Source: Candidatus Alcyoniella australis (GTDB lineage: Bacteria; Lernaellota; Lernaellaia; JAVCCG01; Alcyoniellaceae). Taken from it: 32,363 nt of DNA. Made by a program: the position numbers and the translations under genes. The notes below the pieces were generated by a model. The model had not been told where the DNA came from. It ran no database searches and worked only from the letters and a program-made list of their open reading frames with translations. Position 1 is the first letter of the stretch. Every line of letters begins with the position of its first letter. Below are positions 3,296 through 10,995 of the stretch, piece by piece. Location of the stretch: assembly GCA_030765605.1 (NCBI GenBank), contig JAVCCG010000023.1, positions 1 to 32,363 on the forward strand. Reading direction: 5' to 3'.

Positions 3296-4882
3296 TTACT
3301 TCGGCCCTCTATTAAGACCCAGCTTCTTGATGATCGCGCCGAATTCCTCCTTGTCCTTGACCTGGATGAACTCGCGGTTGTTGACGAACACCGAGAAGTC
3401 GCCGCCCACGCCCAACTGCGCCGCGTCCTGGCTCACCTGCTTGAGCGCTCGATCCCCGTCCTCGCCCTCGGCCAGCTTCTTGATTTCGTCCGGATTCAGG
3501 CCCACGCCTGCCACGTATTCTTCCCAGTAGGTGCGGACCATGTTGTGGCAGCGATCCTTGAGATAGGCCAGGAAGCGGTCGGGATGGTGCTCCAAGATCA
3601 TCAGCTGACGCTTAATCTCCTCGAGCTCGGCCGGCGATAACTCACTGACCGGCTGTCCGTTCTCGTCCAGCAGAGCATATGGCGAAAACACGAAATTATC
3701 GCCCATCTCGACGTTCATCCGCTGAATCAGATCGATGGTGTCCAGCAGCACCAGCGGCACGCGCTGGGAGTAAGGCATGTAATAGATCACCACCCTGCCC
3801 GGTACAGCCGGCCGATCGATATTGACGTTGGCGCCCACGCGCTCGGCCTTGAGCAGGTAGTGGTCCTGCTTCTTCTCCAAAACGTCCTCCTGGGTCAACA
3901 TCTCGAACGGCTTGGTCTGTTCGACCTTTTTCTCAAACATGAACGCCGGCAGGTAGACGATGCCGTAGCTTTGGATCAGGCGTTCGCCCTCGGGCGTATC
4001 GGAACGGATCTCGTTGATCTTGAGGTTGGGAAAGAGCTTGCGTGTGGATTCCAGAACATGCTCGGCCGGTGATGTCAACGCAGCGTCGTAGGAGATCACG
4101 GTCATCTCGATCTCCATGGTTTCGGCATCGGCCAGCGGCTGCTCCTCATCGCCGCCGCAGCGCATGTTGCCCTGGGGCCCGTCGTTGTAGCTCAGCTCCA
4201 TCGGCGGGTCGGAGCAGACTTTGGGCTTATTATCATCTTGAAGTTGGGCGCAAGCACGTTGGAAAAGGTCCATACTGCTGATTTTGCCCGAGTATTTGCT
4301 GCCGTCCACGAACAGCGCCGGGGAATAGTTGACGTTGCGCTCCTGTGACAGCGCCAGGTCGGCGCGTAACAGCTCATCGGCGCGGCCGCCCTCGATGCAT
4401 TGCCGCAGCGCGTCAAGATCGATCCCCTGCTGCCCGGCGGCAGCCTCCCAGGTCAACGACTTATCCTCGATCATCGATACGACCATCGGCCAGGCCTTTT
4501 TCATATCGATCTCATCAACGCAGATCCACGAGCGGTTCAGATCGAGCTCTTTGGGACCGTGCAGCGAACGCAGCTGGCCCTCCTTCTCGCCGATCACAAA
4601 ACGGACTTTAACGTTGACCCGATCACCCAGTGCGTCCTTTACCGGATCCATCAACAGGATCGCGTTGGTGCCAAACGGACACTGGCTCATCGCCCATAAC
4701 TCTACGTCGATGATACCGTCGTTTGCAGTGGCCGGTGCCGGAGTCGGCGACGTGGTGGACGGCGTGGTCGAAGCAGTCTCTTCCTGCTCACTGCCATTGG
4801 GACAGCCGGCGAGCAGCAGCATGCTCAACACGATGATAATCACACGTGAAAAAGACATTATCTTCCTCGTCCGAGTTTGCAT
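3296..4882 (-). CDS. Lipoprotein with three thioredoxin-like folds
   Basis: A 528-residue exported protein. A signal peptide ends in lipobox LLLAGC (Cys27), followed by a Ser/Thr/Pro linker, so it is probably membrane-tethered in the envelope. Domain 1 (about 57-220) is DsbA/GILT-like: strand VELWAMSQ, CPFG (Cys68), and a cis-Pro segment SPALFVDG. The site has a single Cys because Gly replaces the second one. Domain 2 (about 250-325) has a cis-Pro-like LPAFMFE but no active-site Cys. Domain 3 (about 350-525) begins RVVIYYMPYSQRV, where a CxxC would be expected, and ends GGDFSVFVNNREF. Further Cys residues may pair with Cys68. Starts at 4882 (GGAGGG upstream) and at the in-frame ATG eight codons later (GAGGAA upstream) are both credible; the latter gives a more typical signal length. 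Probably a thiol-dependent or purely binding envelope protein; substrate unknown. Confidence 0.75.
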   Translation of the reverse strand: MQTRTRKIMSFSRVIIIVLSMLLLAGCPNGSEQEETASTTPSTTSPTPAPATANDGIIDVELWAMSQCPFGTNAILLMDPVKDALGDRVNVKVRFVIGEKEGQLRSLHGPKELDLNRSWICVDEIDMKKAWPMVVSMIEDKSLTWEAAAGQQGIDLDALRQCIEGGRADELLRADLALSQERNVNYSPALFVDGSKYSGKISSMDLFQRACAQLQDDNKPKVCSDPPMELSYNDGPQGNMRCGGDEEQPLADAETMEIEMTVISYDAALTSPAEHVLESTRKLFPNLKINEIRSDTPEGERLIQSYGIVYLPAFMFEKKVEQTKPFEMLTQEDVLEKKQDHYLLKAERVGANVNIDRPAVPGRVVIYYMPYSQRVPLVLLDTIDLIQRMNVEMGDNFVFSPYALLDENGQPVSELSPAELEEIKRQLMILEHHPDRFLAYLKDRCHNMVRTYWEEYVAGVGLNPDEIKKLAEGEDGDRALKQVSQDAAQLGVGGDFSVFVNNREFIQVKDKEEFGAIIKKLGLNRGPK

Positions 4883-5089: not shown

Positions 5090-5422
5090 ATGTCAGATTT
5101 GACCCCGAAAATGATCTTTGACGAGAAGATCCCTGAGAACCTGAAGAACGACCCGGGCAAGACGGCAGGCATGAACGCGGTCTACCAGTTCAACATCACC
5201 GGTGACAATGGTGGTTCCTGGTTCGTCGACCTGACTGTCGATCCGTCAGCCGTTGGCGAGGGCACCTCGGACAAGGCCAATTGCACCATTACCTGCACCG
5301 ATGGCGACTTCGTCAACATCGTATCCGGTAAGCTCAACGGCCAGATGGCTTTCATGACCGGCAAGCTGAAAATCGCCGGAGACATGGGCCTGGCCATGAA
5401 GCTGCAGAAGGTGCTCGGCTAA
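5090..5422 (+). CDS. SCP2 sterol-carrier-like lipid-binding protein
   Basis: A 110-residue single-domain protein matching the SCP2 fold over its whole length. It begins with an amphipathic helix (PKMIFDEKIPENL) and continues with strands VYQFNITGDNGGSWFVDL and ANCTITCTDGDFVNIVSGKLNGQMAFMTGKLKI in runs typical of the family. It ends with the GDMGLAMKLQKVL helix that closes the hydrophobic tunnel. SCP2 proteins bind fatty acyl chains, acyl-CoA or sterols non-specifically; bacterial ligands are mostly undefined. There is no signal peptide, so it is cytoplasmic. The start is supported by AAGGAAGGGGG upstream. It has its own promoter and terminator, with no partner gene on the same strand, suggesting a free-standing, well-expressed lipid carrier. 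Confidence 0.88.
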   Translation: MSDLTPKMIFDEKIPENLKNDPGKTAGMNAVYQFNITGDNGGSWFVDLTVDPSAVGEGTSDKANCTITCTDGDFVNIVSGKLNGQMAFMTGKLKIAGDMGLAMKLQKVLG

Positions 5423-5514: not shown

Positions 5515-6117
5515 GTGCGTACCATCGCCTGGATAATCGCCGGAATCGTCACCCTGCTATTGCTGCTTCAGCTTCCCACGTTGCTGCCGCGCCTAGGAGA
5601 CCGGCTGATCTTCGGCGGCATCTCCGGCTCGGAGCCTCCACTATCTTGCCCCGAGGGCATGTTGTTCATCCCCACCGAGGACAGCGGGTTCTGCATCGAT
5701 CGCTTTGAGGCCCCAAACATCGAGGGCAAACTGCCGCTACGTGGCCTATCGATGGAACAGGCGCTGGAGTATTGCGCACAACGCGGCTCCCGGCTTTGCA
5801 CCGAGGGCGAATGGTACCGCGCCTGCTCCGGCCCCCAGGGCAACGCCTCATACATCGGCGAGTGCGTTAATCCCAGTAGCGAACCCCAGATGTCCGGATC
5901 GCGTACGCATTGCTTCAGCCCCGAGGGCGTGGCCGACCTGTCGGGCAACATCCTGGAGTGGACCTCGGACGGTCAGCCCGATCCATTCGCATTCTTCCTC
6001 AAGGGCGGCTCGTACCTCACCCCCGATGGCTATACTTCGTGTGGGTATCAGGTGGTGGTGCTGCCCGGACAGTCCGGGCTGTCCAGACCCGATTTGGGAG
6101 TCAGGTGCTGCCGATAA
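5515..6117 (+). CDS. Short FGE/SUMF1-like (sulfatase-modifying factor domain) protein
   Basis: A 200-residue protein. An N-terminal hydrophobic helix (residues 4-22) acts as signal anchor, followed by a compact FGE-sulfatase fold: CPEGMLFIP..GFCIDRFEAPN, EALEYCAQRGSRLCTEGEWYRAC, GVADLSGNILEWT, FFLKGGSY and the terminal LGVRCCR, all family hallmarks. Known members include formylglycine-generating enzymes and many non-catalytic relatives used as envelope or binding modules. At this size, and with many probably disulfide-linked Cys, a non-catalytic envelope protein is more likely; I cannot identify the FGE catalytic Cys pair with confidence. The start is GTG 5515 with a poor ribosome-binding site. 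The 3' end overlaps the convergent membrane-protein gene by 70 bases. No sulfatase gene is nearby. Confidence 0.75.
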   Translation: MRTIAWIIAGIVTLLLLLQLPTLLPRLGDRLIFGGISGSEPPLSCPEGMLFIPTEDSGFCIDRFEAPNIEGKLPLRGLSMEQALEYCAQRGSRLCTEGEWYRACSGPQGNASYIGECVNPSSEPQMSGSRTHCFSPEGVADLSGNILEWTSDGQPDPFAFFLKGGSYLTPDGYTSCGYQVVVLPGQSGLSRPDLGVRCCR

Positions 6118-6992
6118 GCGCGACGGTCCAATCCGCGTAGATCGACCAAGTAGTCAACGAACCCGACTATCGAGTACAGCACCAGCGCGCCGGGCGCCAA
6201 AGCCACTGCACCGAGCATCAGCGGCAGAATCCGCGAACGGCTCAAGCGCGTTGCGCCGTACCAGGCCACGCTCAATCCCTGCAGGGCAAAGGGGATTGCC
6301 AGGTAGAACATTCGCGCCTGTCGAATCTGCGGCGAACCGTGTCGGTCATACATCCACAGCAGTATCCCCAAAGGCAACACTATCAGCAGCTCAAGCCGTC
6401 CCAGCCGCCAATAAGAAAAACGGACCTTGCGCGCACGCGGACCGACCAGCGCCAGCAGCATCGTGCCGATAATCCCCGCTGTGGCGCGCACCATCACACC
6501 GGCGTTGGCCGCGGCCCAGGCGCCGGCCGGCGCCAACATCTGAGCCACGGTTTCACCCGATCCGGGTACCGCGCGCTCCACTGCCCAGGATGCAGCCAAG
6601 ATCACACGGTTGCCCAGGTCGAGCATCCACAGCGCGGGCATATTCAGCGACAGCTGGTCGTAGTACCAGGTGTCCATGGCGCAGCAGGCGATTATCGCTC
6701 CGGCTGCCGCGCCTGCCAGAGGTGTGAAACCGCGCGCGGCGCCAAAGGCCAGCATGCCGCCCCATAGAATGTAGATCAGCGCCGAGCTGTAGGCCGTGGA
6801 TTGAAATAGTATGTCCGGCGGGCTGAGTAGTGCGGCGAAACCGATGAGCAGCGGCAGGCCCAGCAGTAAACCCGAGGTCCAGCCGCCGCGAATGCGAAAT
6901 ACAAAAAACGACAGCCCGAACAGCAGCAGCAGCGGTCCGACCTGCGGTATCGGCCCGGCGAGAAACTCGTCGATCACCAGCTGCCAGCTCAT
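6048..6992 (-). CDS. Polytopic membrane protein, DUF2232-like
   Basis: A 314-residue integral membrane protein with about eight hydrophobic segments and short loops. It opens with GPLLLLFGLSFFVFR and ends near LGAVALAPGALVLYSIVGFVDYLVDLRGL. That pattern of a final helix followed by a D..D.R motif recalls DUF2232 (YybS-like) proteins, of unknown function. ATG 6992 overlaps the upstream gene's TGA in an ATGA arrangement, indicating translational coupling. A longer frame upstream has no support. It is the last gene of the four-gene minus-strand operon. Its final 24 codons are antisense to the end of the FGE-like gene, look unlike a membrane-protein tail and probably represent a 3' extension. Possible partner of the membrane-anchored PEP-synthase-like protein. 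Confidence 0.68.
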   Translation of the reverse strand: MSWQLVIDEFLAGPIPQVGPLLLLFGLSFFVFRIRGGWTSGLLLGLPLLIGFAALLSPPDILFQSTAYSSALIYILWGGMLAFGAARGFTPLAGAAAGAIIACCAMDTWYYDQLSLNMPALWMLDLGNRVILAASWAVERAVPGSGETVAQMLAPAGAWAAANAGVMVRATAGIIGTMLLALVGPRARKVRFSYWRLGRLELLIVLPLGILLWMYDRHGSPQIRQARMFYLAIPFALQGLSVAWYGATRLSRSRILPLMLGAVALAPGALVLYSIVGFVDYLVDLRGLDRRAYRQHLTPKSGLDSPDCPGSTTT

Positions 6993-9445
6993 GCGCCGTC
7001 CGCTCCGAGCTGCCGCAAGCTGCCGGCCCAGCCATCGACCTCCACGCGGGTTCCCGGCTCCAGCTTTGTCGCTCCGGGCAATCCGACGATCATCGGCAGT
7101 CCCATCTCGCGACACAGTTGCCCCAAATGGCACAGCGCCGATCCGGTCTCGCAAACTATCGCGGCCACCTTGAGTTGCCCGGCGTTGACCACGTCGGGCG
7201 AGGAGAGCACCAGGATGTCCCCTGCTTCAGCCTTTCCGGCCAGGGCCAGCCGCCCTCGCGCAATTCCGGGGCTGACTGCGATTCCCTGGGTGCCCTGTGG
7301 TCTGCGCAGCTCGCCATCCTCGGTCTCGATGATCGTCGGCCACGCGGACTGTGTGCGCCACGCTTCCATCTGCTCGCGGCGTTCATCCAGCGCCTCGACC
7401 GCTGGTAAATCGCGATTGAACGATTGCCGCAGCTCGTCCAGTCCGAGCAGGAATACGTCCTGCACGTCGGCCAGCAGTCCCTGCTCGACCAACTTGCGCC
7501 CATGAGCCAGCAGCAGCGAGCGCAACGCCGTAACGCCGCGCAGCAGCGTGTCCTTGGCGTTCTCACGCCATGAAGATGCGCGCACCGCAGCGTTAAAGGA
7601 ACGCCTGAGTTGCCAACGCTCCCAGGGCACGAGGTGTCCTAGGGCAATCCCCTCACAGCGTTTTTCCAGCTCCTGACGCGCCTGCTCCAGGTCAAGGGAT
7701 TCCTCCGACGCGGCGACCAACGGCAGCTCCATCTGCGGGTCGCTTTGGGGCCGCGGATTGGACAGCTCGATCTCGCCGGCGGCTCGATGACCCCAATCGT
7801 GCCGATAACACTCAATCTGCCCCGCGCGTTGAACCTCGTTGGCGTGTTCCAGCTCCTGACGCGCTCTGCGCCAGGCGTTCAGCGCGTTTTCCTCTACCCC
7901 GGCGATTGCCGATTGCAATAGATCATCAAGCTCGACGTGCCAGCGATCGGCGAGCAACCTCAAACCCGAGGCGTACTGATCGGCGAGGAACGTCCCCTCG
8001 ACGTGCAGCGCCATTGCCCGCCGGTACACCAAATCGGCCAAAGCGCTGCAACGATTAAAGGCTCCCGCGTTCAGGCCGGCGTCCGCCAGACTTTGCGATG
8101 TTCGATCTATCTGTTGACGAAGATCGGTCAGCCGCGCATCCCAGTTGGCGCCGCGTCGCCCAATCCTCAACGAGGCAATCAGATTTCGCAGCTTACTTGA
8201 GAAGCGTCGCGAGTCGCGGTGCAGTTGGCCGATCAGCTCGGCGTCAACGTACGGCCTGCCCTCGATCCAGCGCATTGAGGGGCTGCCGGCGATCGATCCC
8301 AGGCCGGCAAGCTTCAACGGCAGTTCGAGCTGTTGCTCCACAGACAAACGGCCCTGGATCAGTTCGCGGCTCAGGGGGCTTAACGGCTCGCTGATTAACT
8401 CCACCGCGCCGGAGTTGATCCACAACCTTCCGCGAAGTTTGCGCGGTGCGGGTCTGACCTGCAGCGCGAACAGCTCCTGCGAGTCCTCGCTGCTGCACCA
8501 CTCGACCTCCACCGGACCGTTGTAGCGGGCGGACTGCTCAAGCCCCAAAGCGACCAAGCGGCGTATCAGATCGCTGCTCAATCCGACAATCGCCCCAGCC
8601 GGCAAGCCGCGCGGTCCAACCTGTATGCGTCGGGCGCGCGCCGGCTCGTATACGTCTCCGGCACAGGCCTCGATCGTTACGCTGTCCAGCGCACCGCTGA
8701 CCGGGTCTGCGGTCAGCATTCGGCCGATCCACGCACCGCCGACCAGTTGATGCACGAACAAGCCCAAGTTCTCGGGCAGCCCAGTGAAGGCCAGGTTACG
8801 CGCGCGATCGGAATAGGCCGAGCGCCATACCGATTCGATAGCGTGCTCCAGCTCCCGCACCCGCGTAATGCGGACACTGCGAAACACGCCCGATGCGGTA
8901 CCGCTTTGTTGGTCCTCCACCGCAAAACTGGAACGCACCATCGCCTCGCCGCGGCCGACCTGCCGCCGATAGAAACGGACGATGCGCCGCATGGTGCGCG
9001 GCGGGATCTGAAACTGCATTCCGGCGTCCGATCGCTGGCTGCTGCGTTCGTGCAAGCGGCCGCTGATCGCAAATCCTTGGGGAATTTTGACATTGCTCCG
9101 CGATAGCACGCCCAGGCGAGCGGCTTTAGAGCCGAAATATTGCGCATCGCCTTGGACCAGTCGATCCAGCGGCAGCAGCATCGCACGCGGATGACTGATC
9201 CGGATCCAGACTCGGTGCAACAAGGCTCGTAGGGCCAGCAGCAGTGTCAAACAGACCAGCGCCGAGACGGTCAGCTCGAGCATTCCCGCGGCCTGGCCCG
9301 TGGCGCTGAAGTAGACCACGGCTGCGACCACCAGCAGCGCGCCAAGTCCGAGAATCAGCAGCAGCGCCCAGCTGAGCACGATCAGCACCGGCGCCAGCAT
9401 CAGCAGGCCTACCAGTCCGAAAAACGGAAGGACGATCGTGGTCAC
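6989..9445 (-). CDS. Membrane-anchored PEP-synthase-like phosphotransferase
   Basis: An 818-residue protein. Residues 4-75 form about three membrane helices, which PEP synthases lack. Then comes a PPDK_N/ATP-grasp domain: YFGSKAARLGVL (Lys107), MVRSSFAVEDQQSG, GLFVHQLVGGAWIGRMLTADP and LFALQVRP, all recognisable nucleotide-binding signatures. A helical, Gln/Glu-rich middle of about 350 residues follows. A swivelling phosphohistidine domain closes the protein (GDILVLSSPDVVNAG..., ETGSALCHLGQLCREMGLPMIVG, His near 773). The usual TGG.lSH motif is altered to TGSALCH but keeps the His. There is no C-terminal PEP-binding TIM barrel, so it is not a pyruvate-making PEP synthase. The order resembles rifampin phosphotransferase (ATP domain, substrate domain, His domain), with substrate unknown. 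The start is GTG 9445, 20 bases after the amidohydrolase. Confidence 0.78.
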   Translation of the reverse strand: MTTIVLPFFGLVGLLMLAPVLIVLSWALLLILGLGALLVVAAVVYFSATGQAAGMLELTVSALVCLTLLLALRALLHRVWIRISHPRAMLLPLDRLVQGDAQYFGSKAARLGVLSRSNVKIPQGFAISGRLHERSSQRSDAGMQFQIPPRTMRRIVRFYRRQVGRGEAMVRSSFAVEDQQSGTASGVFRSVRITRVRELEHAIESVWRSAYSDRARNLAFTGLPENLGLFVHQLVGGAWIGRMLTADPVSGALDSVTIEACAGDVYEPARARRIQVGPRGLPAGAIVGLSSDLIRRLVALGLEQSARYNGPVEVEWCSSEDSQELFALQVRPAPRKLRGRLWINSGAVELISEPLSPLSRELIQGRLSVEQQLELPLKLAGLGSIAGSPSMRWIEGRPYVDAELIGQLHRDSRRFSSKLRNLIASLRIGRRGANWDARLTDLRQQIDRTSQSLADAGLNAGAFNRCSALADLVYRRAMALHVEGTFLADQYASGLRLLADRWHVELDDLLQSAIAGVEENALNAWRRARQELEHANEVQRAGQIECYRHDWGHRAAGEIELSNPRPQSDPQMELPLVAASEESLDLEQARQELEKRCEGIALGHLVPWERWQLRRSFNAAVRASSWRENAKDTLLRGVTALRSLLLAHGRKLVEQGLLADVQDVFLLGLDELRQSFNRDLPAVEALDERREQMEAWRTQSAWPTIIETEDGELRRPQGTQGIAVSPGIARGRLALAGKAEAGDILVLSSPDVVNAGQLKVAAIVCETGSALCHLGQLCREMGLPMIVGLPGATKLEPGTRVEVDGWAGSLRQLGADGA

Positions 9446-9465: not shown

Positions 9466-10995
9466 TTACAATCGGCCCGAGTAAACCAGCTTGCCGCCGA
9501 TGTACAAGGCCTTGATCGCGATCTGCTCGATCCCGGACGGGTCGATGATCAGCGGGTCCGCGTCTAGGACGCACAGGTCCGCGTCGAGCCCGGGCTCGAT
9601 CGTTCCCCGAGCGCGTTCCTCAAACACCGAACGCGCGCCGCCCAGGGTGAATATCCGTAGCGCCTCGTAGGGAGTAAGCGCCTGATCGCGGTTGGGATGG
9701 TTGATCGCCATCGCGATTCCGCGCAACGGATTGATCGGGCTCACCGGCGCGTCCGATCCGCCGGAAATATCGATCCCGGCCTTGAGGTAGGAGCGCAGCG
9801 GCAGGTATCCGGCGAAACGTTTCTTCCCCAGAGTTTTTTGTAAATAGGCGGTGGGTGTGGTCGGCATATCCAAGAACGCCGGCTGCACCCCCAGGTGCAC
9901 GCCGAGCTTTGCCATGCGCTCGATCTGCTCGGTTCGCGGCATCTCGCAATGCTCGATGCGCATCCGATGGTCGGCCCGCGGATGCTCGGCCAGCACACTG
10001 CCGTAGACCCGCAGCGCCTGCTCGATCGCCCGGTCGCCGATGGCGTGCAGCGCCACCTGCATCATCGCCAAATGGGCTCCTTCGACGAATGCGCGCACCT
10101 TCTCGTCCGAATGGTAGAGCAGACCGTTGGTATCCGGCCTGTCGCAAAACGGCTCGGACAGTGCCGCGGTATGCGAGCTTAAGCTGCCGTCCAGGGCCAT
10201 CTCAAAACAGCCGCCCGCCCTGCCCTGACCCACGCGTTTGACCCGTCGCAAATCGAACGACTGAACGAAGATCCGCAGCCGCGGTCGGTCGAACAGTCCG
10301 GCAACGCGCGCCGCAAGCACGTCAATGTCGAACGGCACTTGGAAGCCTTCGAGGCAAACCGCAGTTCCCACGCCGCGCGAGAGCGCGTGGCGCGACACAG
10401 CGCGCAGTGCCCTGACGATCGAGCGGCGCGCTACCGCCGTTTGGCTGAGCTTAAGCGCCTCGGTGTGGGCCTCGCCCACCAACTGACCGGCATCGGCATC
10501 CAGGCCGCGCAGATCGGCTGGCAGCTCCAGCTTGCGCAGGGCCGCACTGTTGACTGCGCAGCCGTGGCCATCGGCCCGTTCGAGCAGCAACGGCGAATCT
10601 GAGACCCAGCGGTCGAGTTCCTCGCGCGAGGGCAGCCGCCCCTCGGGCATCGAATTGTCGGCCGCGCCCAGCCCGACCAGCCACGCGCCGCGTCCTCGCT
10701 CCTTGCGCGCCTTAGCCACGATCCGCCGCAGGTCCTCGTGGTTCTTAGCTTGATCGAACCGCAGGCCGATCAACATCAGCCCCGCACCCAGCCAGTGGGT
10801 GTGCGAATCGACGAACGCCGGCACTACCGTGGCCCCATGCAGATCGACCACTTTGGCGTAGGCGCGCAGCTCGCGTTCAACGCGATCGGCAACCGCGACG
10901 ATCCGGCCACCTTCGAGTGCGATCTCTTGCGCCCGATTCTGCGGTCCGGTCATCGGGATCACGTTGGCGTTGGTCAACAGCGTCAGGCGCGACAT
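9466..10995 (-). CDS. YtcJ-like amidohydrolase (Amidohydro_3)
   Basis: A 509-residue metal-dependent hydrolase. An N-terminal beta sandwich (LLTNANVIPMTG..., ALEGGRIVAVAD) leads into the barrel with PAFVDSHTHW (His65/His67 metal ligands). Further hallmarks are LERADGHGCAVNSAAL, VALHAIGDRAIEQALRVY, MRIEHCEMP and GGSDAPVSPINPLRGI, with the C-terminal sandwich GLDADLCVLDADPL. This is the full-length architecture of YtcJ-type proteins, which hydrolyse amide or related bonds of small molecules; the substrate cannot be read from sequence. There is no signal peptide, so it is cytoplasmic. ATG 10995 lies four bases after the stop of the DUF192 gene, and the next gene follows within 20 bases, so all are co-transcribed. 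Confidence 0.9.
   Translation of the reverse strand: MSRLTLLTNANVIPMTGPQNRAQEIALEGGRIVAVADRVERELRAYAKVVDLHGATVVPAFVDSHTHWLGAGLMLIGLRFDQAKNHEDLRRIVAKARKERGRGAWLVGLGAADNSMPEGRLPSREELDRWVSDSPLLLERADGHGCAVNSAALRKLELPADLRGLDADAGQLVGEAHTEALKLSQTAVARRSIVRALRAVSRHALSRGVGTAVCLEGFQVPFDIDVLAARVAGLFDRPRLRIFVQSFDLRRVKRVGQGRAGGCFEMALDGSLSSHTAALSEPFCDRPDTNGLLYHSDEKVRAFVEGAHLAMMQVALHAIGDRAIEQALRVYGSVLAEHPRADHRMRIEHCEMPRTEQIERMAKLGVHLGVQPAFLDMPTTPTAYLQKTLGKKRFAGYLPLRSYLKAGIDISGGSDAPVSPINPLRGIAMAINHPNRDQALTPYEALRIFTLGGARSVFEERARGTIEPGLDADLCVLDADPLIIDPSGIEQIAIKALYIGGKLVYSGRL

Follow-up and report, generated by a model that had tools for sequence, protein, structure and literature searches.

A putative membrane-anchored branch of RPH-type dikinases paired with a polytopic membrane protein in two small phyla

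What is the role of an enzyme that combines the ATP-grasp and phosphohistidine domains of PEP synthase with a hydrophobic N-terminus, and whose gene runs directly into that of a polytopic membrane protein? The question is raised by a locus of Candidatus Alcyoniella australis, which we analysed within a 32,363-nucleotide stretch of contig JAVCCG010000023.1 (the window; Table 1). A preliminary description had taken the enzyme, here gene A, to be PEP-synthase-like, and its partner, here gene B, to be DUF2232-like. Judged by sequence, the pair is real, conserved and intact, and it is novel as a membrane-bound version of a known kind of enzyme, with a function that we regard as putative.

Table 1. 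Features of the locus, with positions in the window
Feature	Position	Strand	Remarks
Gene A, predicted membrane-anchored RPH-type dikinase	6989..9445	-	818 aa; coordinates include stop; GTG start
Hydrophobic N-terminus of gene A (residues 1-81), with 2-3 membrane helices	9203..9445	-	Hydropathy
ATP-grasp domain of gene A (residues 104-333), containing K107, R171, S190, E315, Q329, R331	8447..9136	-	Pfam and RPH-Lm alignment
Gene A residues 340-735, substrate-domain region, divergent, colinear with RIF-binding region of RPH	7241..8428	-	R627-E628-x-x-K631 kept
Gene A residues 741-808, phosphohistidine swivel domain	7022..7225	-	His773 at 7127-7129
Amidohydrolase gene	9466..10995	-	20 nt upstream of gene A; perhaps co-transcribed in the window's genome
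Gene B, polytopic membrane protein	6048..6992	-	314 aa, with about nine hydrophobic segments and a W-x-L-D-x-x-N motif; C-terminal part resembles DUF2232
ATGA overlap, gene A stop and gene B start	6989..6992	-	4 nt
Gene C, one N-terminal membrane segment and FGE-sulfatase (SUMF2-like) domain	5515..6117	+	Homologous to the domain at the C-terminus of gene B in six other members

The enzyme encoded by gene A

The domain inventory first given for gene A was accurate, since Pfam recovers PPDK_N at E 1.5e-16, along with the mobile domain of PEP-utilizers at E 3e-12, and lists no PEP/pyruvate barrel up to E 1. Its comparison with PEP synthase was misplaced. PEP synthase and PPDK share the ATP-grasp and swivel domains with gene A, but their own swivel is central and is followed by a C-terminal barrel, both of which are wanting in gene A, where the swivel is C-terminal; the score against TIGR01418 is 71.1 bits of the 739.75 required. 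The closest characterised architecture is that of the dikinases of rifampin phosphotransferase (RPH) type, named for an enzyme that inactivates rifampin, and in these the absence of the barrel is to be expected. A family profile of eight rows, comprising whole and partial members, aligns with the Listeria enzyme RPH-Lm (5fbs) in one colinear stretch at profile positions 116-746 (E 1.7e-53), and both Pfam and this alignment place the ATP-grasp domain, substrate domain and C-terminal swivel of gene A in the RPH-type order. Membership of rifampin phosphotransferase proper can be set aside, the score against RIF_Ptrans_rph (NCBIfam) being 101 bits, with a cut-off of 999.

The catalytic residues argue for the same assignment. 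Three residues of the window protein, K107, R171 and H773, correspond to Lys22, Arg117 and His825 of RPH-Lm and are identical in all nine family members; Thr136 corresponds to S190 and is Ser in all nine; and Glu297, Gln309 and Arg311, the latter two counted on the 5fbs chain of the profile alignment, correspond to E315, Q329 and R331, which are identical in the eight readable copies. The available text of PMC4844700 describes Lys22, Arg117, Thr136 and His825 as important for the first step of the reaction, and gives Glu297 a role while reporting it to be dispensable. The preliminary description had placed the histidine correctly, at residue 773, and the altered swivel motif to which it drew attention (TGSALCH) is real, but the substitution of G-S for G-G is also seen in G125, G388 and G389 and is not peculiar to the window.

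For the second step, the Arg-Glu and Lys of block 9 in RPH are described as catalytic, with conservation extending to the most distant of the RPH clades examined (PMC4844700, in the available part of section 10). The window protein has this Arg-Glu-x-x-Lys motif, pointing to a small molecule as the acceptor. Across the family, the Glu is found in seven of nine members by automatic alignment and in all nine by hand alignment anchored on a downstream D-x-F motif; by the latter, the Arg is kept in six of nine, being replaced in three members from the window's phylum (G001, G002 and G005), and a basic residue (K/R/H) stands at +3 in every member. The middle domain is otherwise divergent and variable in length, whole family proteins ranging from 738 to 908 aa, and so the class of substrate is not readable from sequence.

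At the other end of the protein, three helices had been proposed. A hydrophobic N-terminus is present in nine of nine members, but the number of helices is better given as two or three, since hydropathy permits three and a low-confidence predicted model (mean pLDDT 46.6, 4-row alignment) gives two long ones, at residues 2-45 and 53-83. This feature sets gene A apart from RPH-Lm. RPH-Lm (PDB 5fbs/5hv1/5hv2) has the same domain order, the same ATP-site residues wherever checked, the catalytic His and the Arg-Glu-x-x-Lys seen in the window, but it is without helices and without a partner, and about 100 residues of the RPH middle region have no counterpart in the gene A family profile. The two-component phenol dikinases HpeHI, CreHI and PpsAB likewise apply RPH-type chemistry to small molecules, but with ATP-grasp and swivel on separate proteins, and the portions of PMC12167813 available mention no membrane anchor for them. 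On these comparisons, gene A is best described as a predicted membrane-anchored branch of the RPH-type small-molecule dikinases.

In a tree, eight family members are split from 21 other, hand-chosen RPH-like proteins with a support of 0.994; the tree is unrooted, its midpoint root falls inside the family, and the frameshifted copy of G005 was left out. Within the family, G125, G388 and G389 are placed with the window's phylum and apart from G262 and G387 of their own (0.921 and 0.963), which would fit either exchange between the phyla or weak resolution.

Among the other RPH-like proteins, one from G196 (L074, 3295-6225) is a 976-aa fusion of a G3P acyltransferase (PF02660) with an RPH-like dikinase, and proteins of like length and helices in G052 (L097) and G327 (L104) group with it in the tree, the Pfam assignment being that of L074. 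Here too an RPH-like dikinase lies behind a multi-helix N-terminus, but the helices of L074 are those of PF02660, and in the tree it falls outside the gene A family branch; it is a second way of tying an RPH-like dikinase to the membrane.

The membrane partner and the FGE-like domain

The translational coupling first reported for gene B is borne out by the overlapping ATGA. The listed open reading frame begins at a TTG at 7154, and the likely start is the ATG at 6992, giving 314 aa. The likeness of its product to DUF2232 holds at the level of profiles but not of membership: the window protein has no Pfam match over cut-off, and reaches 19.9 bits against DUF2232 (PF09991), where the curated cut-off is 27.8 (E 7e-4). 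Compared by hhalign, its C-terminal part matches DUF2232 with a probability of 87.6%, or 95.3% when more DUF2232 sequences are included (E 2.2e-8, 129 columns), while reversed and unrelated membrane proteins used as controls give at most 0.8%. The gene B profile also picks up G000:C76 (E 2.8e-6), a true DUF2232 gene carried by the window's genome. By profile comparison, then, gene B is a distant relative of DUF2232, whose proteins align with its C-terminal 100-130 residues; it differs from them in scoring under the curated cut-off, in having its own W-x-L-D-x-x-N region, in the fusion of an FGE-like domain in six members, and in coexisting with a separate, true DUF2232 gene in the window's genome.

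The DUF2232 clan offered a lead toward an ECF substrate-binding fold for gene B, but this is unsupported, the similarity being 0.2% in a weak test of seven automatically picked ORFs from one family (PF12822). No similarity to solved structures was found by sequence profile, and the predicted structure has a mean pLDDT of 42.4 (4-row alignment). Within the library searched, no paper mentions DUF2232 by name, including in conjunction with PEP synthase, or YybS as a membrane protein.

A third element, gene C, was overlooked in the preliminary description. In six of the nine genomes (G001, G002, G005, G125, G388 and G389) gene B runs on into a last hydrophobic segment and an FGE-sulfatase-type domain, the arrangement in G005 extending across frameshifts and occurring twice in tandem. 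In the window, this segment and domain constitute a separate, convergent gene on the strand opposite to gene B, and the 3' ends of genes B and C overlap by 70 nt (6048-6117), such that the last residues of gene B are antisense to gene C. It has the look of a remnant left when an inversion divided an ancestral B-FGE fusion. Gene C scores 44.9 bits against PF03781 (FGE-sulfatase; cut-off 23.3), and the fused domains of G001, G125, G388 and G389 score 24.1-53.8 bits. Gene C belongs to the system formed by genes A and B. The domain is absent from gene B of G262 and G387, however, and is therefore not essential.

The closest solved protein to the gene C domain is SUMF2 (E 1.8e-12), which we take to be an FGE paralogue without FGE activity. 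FGE itself has a catalytic pair of cysteines in a conserved motif; no such pair was recognised after the G-G-S of gene C, but the SUMF1 alignment stops before that site. Gene C resembles the SUMF2/FGE family in exceeding the Pfam cut-off and in its best solved match, but differs in being membrane-anchored and tied to a dikinase pair. Its invariant cysteines, together with the helix ahead of it, suggest that the domain is extracytoplasmic. Two nearby genes may be recorded here: a 528-aa protein with a DsbA/thioredoxin-like domain (3296-4882), which might serve the Cys-rich gene C, and an SCP-2 sterol-carrier-type gene (5090-5422) that lies just ahead of gene C and shares its strand.

Distribution and neighbourhood of the pair

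Co-occurrence of the two genes, which had been advanced as a check, is evident: genes A and B are found together in nine of 14 genomes belonging to two small phyla. In the window's phylum (seven genomes) gene A is present in G000, which is the window's genome, G001, G002 and G005, and no member was found in G003, G004 or G006; in the second phylum (also seven) it is present in G125, G262, G387, G388 and G389. The two genes are adjacent in all nine, with gaps of -8 to +13 nt at the eight intact junctions, that of G005 lying in a frameshifted stretch. A profile of gene B matches ten of the 14 genomes, the nine with gene A and G390, in which the contig starts inside gene B, so that gene A may lie off the contig; neither gene was detected in G003, G004, G006 or G386. 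A scan of genome contigs returned the copies in G005 and G262 and three weaker, partial matches. Beyond the two phyla, no further genome with a high-scoring match covering the helices appeared in wide, overlapping samples of 386 and 385 genomes, considering the best two candidates per genome, and no relative was found among viral contigs. Canonical PPDK/PEPS matches were left out of the member count. Whole members score at least 850 bits with the family profile and other proteins at most 244, a gap that is in part circular, some of the members having gone into the profile.

At an identity of about 25%, the conservation of catalytic residues, hydrophobic N-terminus and gene pair from one phylum to the other indicates more than chance. 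Neither observation that might have undermined the initial proposal was made, since the N-terminal hydrophobic region is universal among the homologues and so are the catalytic Lys, Arg and His. Nine members do represent fewer independent cases, as G125, G388 and G389 are one genus. In the G005 copy (L007, 4823-10293) there are several frameshifts in gene A and in the two tandem B-FGE genes; these are probably assembly errors, given that several genes are affected in a genome 77% complete, decay being the alternative.

The surroundings of the pair differ between the two phyla. Gene A in the window is closely preceded on its own strand by a DUF192 gene and the amidohydrolase gene, the latter not being beside gene A in any other locus read. 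Divergent to the pair in the second phylum, where the contig allows, are genes for a beta-propeller and for two polytopic proteins. Across L107, L108, L109, L070 and L071 these are two conserved polytopic proteins with no Pfam match over cut-off and a beta-propeller of PQQ type, the propeller not being seen in L109; in one genus a B12-binding radical SAM gene lies beyond gene B. No conserved third neighbour that points to a pathway was found common to both phyla. Genes A, B and C have no PADLOC match, and a role in anti-phage defence was set aside.

Proposed mechanism and its alternatives

In proposing a mechanism, we start from the architecture, the catalytic residues, the pairing and the hydrophobic N-terminus, which are read from sequence; we infer the chemistry in the gene A protein, a transcript common to both genes, the sidedness of the parts, a small-molecule substrate, and the roles of gene B and the FGE-like domain. 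Dikinase chemistry is established for RPH (available text of PMC4844700) and described for HpeHI (in the accessible portions of PMC12167813). By analogy, the cytoplasmic ATP-grasp domain of gene A would load the swivel residue His773 with the beta-phosphate of ATP, yielding AMP and phosphate; the swivel would then turn to the middle domain, where a hydroxyl on a small and probably hydrophobic molecule would accept the phosphate. Gene B, on the same transcript, would be an obligate partner, holding this molecule at the membrane or passing it on; the FGE-like domain, fused to gene B or separate, would bind a ligand on the outer face. Also in favour, relatives of this kind of enzyme phosphorylate phenols, a step suggested to trap the passively diffusing substrate (PMC12167813, in the text available). 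A membrane anchor together with an inseparable membrane partner suggests a substrate in the membrane, or arriving through it, and phosphorylation of a membrane-linked or exported substrate, as initially suggested, may be what gene A performs. We regard the chances as about evenly balanced that gene A is an RPH-type dikinase phosphorylating the hydroxyl of a small, hydrophobic or membrane-delivered molecule that gene B holds or passes.

A tentative alternative, which we consider rather unlikely, is that gene A is a lipid kinase, phosphorylating a membrane lipid alcohol such as a polyprenol, diacylglycerol or quinol at the inner leaflet, while gene B binds or flips the lipid. The anchor of gene A and its polytopic partner would suit such a role, as would the divergent, conserved pair of polytopic proteins in the second phylum, a PMT/GT87-type glycosyltransferase near the G002 copy, and the three other genomes with an RPH-like dikinase behind a multi-helix N-terminus, which in one of them is a G3P acyltransferase. 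However, the neighbours differ between the two phyla, and neither gene A nor gene B matches a lipid-kinase family.

Improbable, in our estimate, is vectorial uptake, by which the FGE-like domain would capture a molecule outside, the DUF2232-type gene B would carry it across, and gene A would phosphorylate it on entry, an ATP-dikinase counterpart, working through a swivelling phosphohistidine, of the PEP-paid group translocation of the PTS. A cytoplasmic dikinase, a membrane partner and a probably extracytoplasmic Cys-rich domain are fitting parts for this, and the phenol dikinases have been proposed to trap their substrate metabolically. Against it, gene B resembles neither solved structures, by sequence profile, nor the one ECF substrate-binding family included in the weak test above, and two members lack the FGE-like domain.

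We give still less credence to a signalling role, in which phospho-His773 would phosphorylate gene B or some other protein, with the FGE-like domain serving as a sensor. In its favour, an outer domain whose fold resembles those that bind ligands is coupled to a phosphorylating enzyme inside, but the catalytic Glu of the second step in small-molecule dikinases is kept in all nine members by hand alignment, and no receiver, HPr or other response protein occurs among the neighbours scanned. That the genes are chance neighbours, or encode a decaying enzyme without joint function, is very improbable, for although the G005 copy is frameshifted and gene A was not found in five of the 14 genomes, those frameshifts are likely to be assembly error, and the pair, its N-terminus and its catalytic residues have been retained between phyla.

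RPH-type dikinases are widespread, few have a known substrate, and those studied are described, in the texts available, without a membrane anchor. If the proposed dikinase reading is true, a branch that is anchored in the membrane, with an obligate partner there, would extend the range of what RPH-type dikinases act on, and the pairing of genes A and B would supply a functional context for a distant relative of DUF2232.
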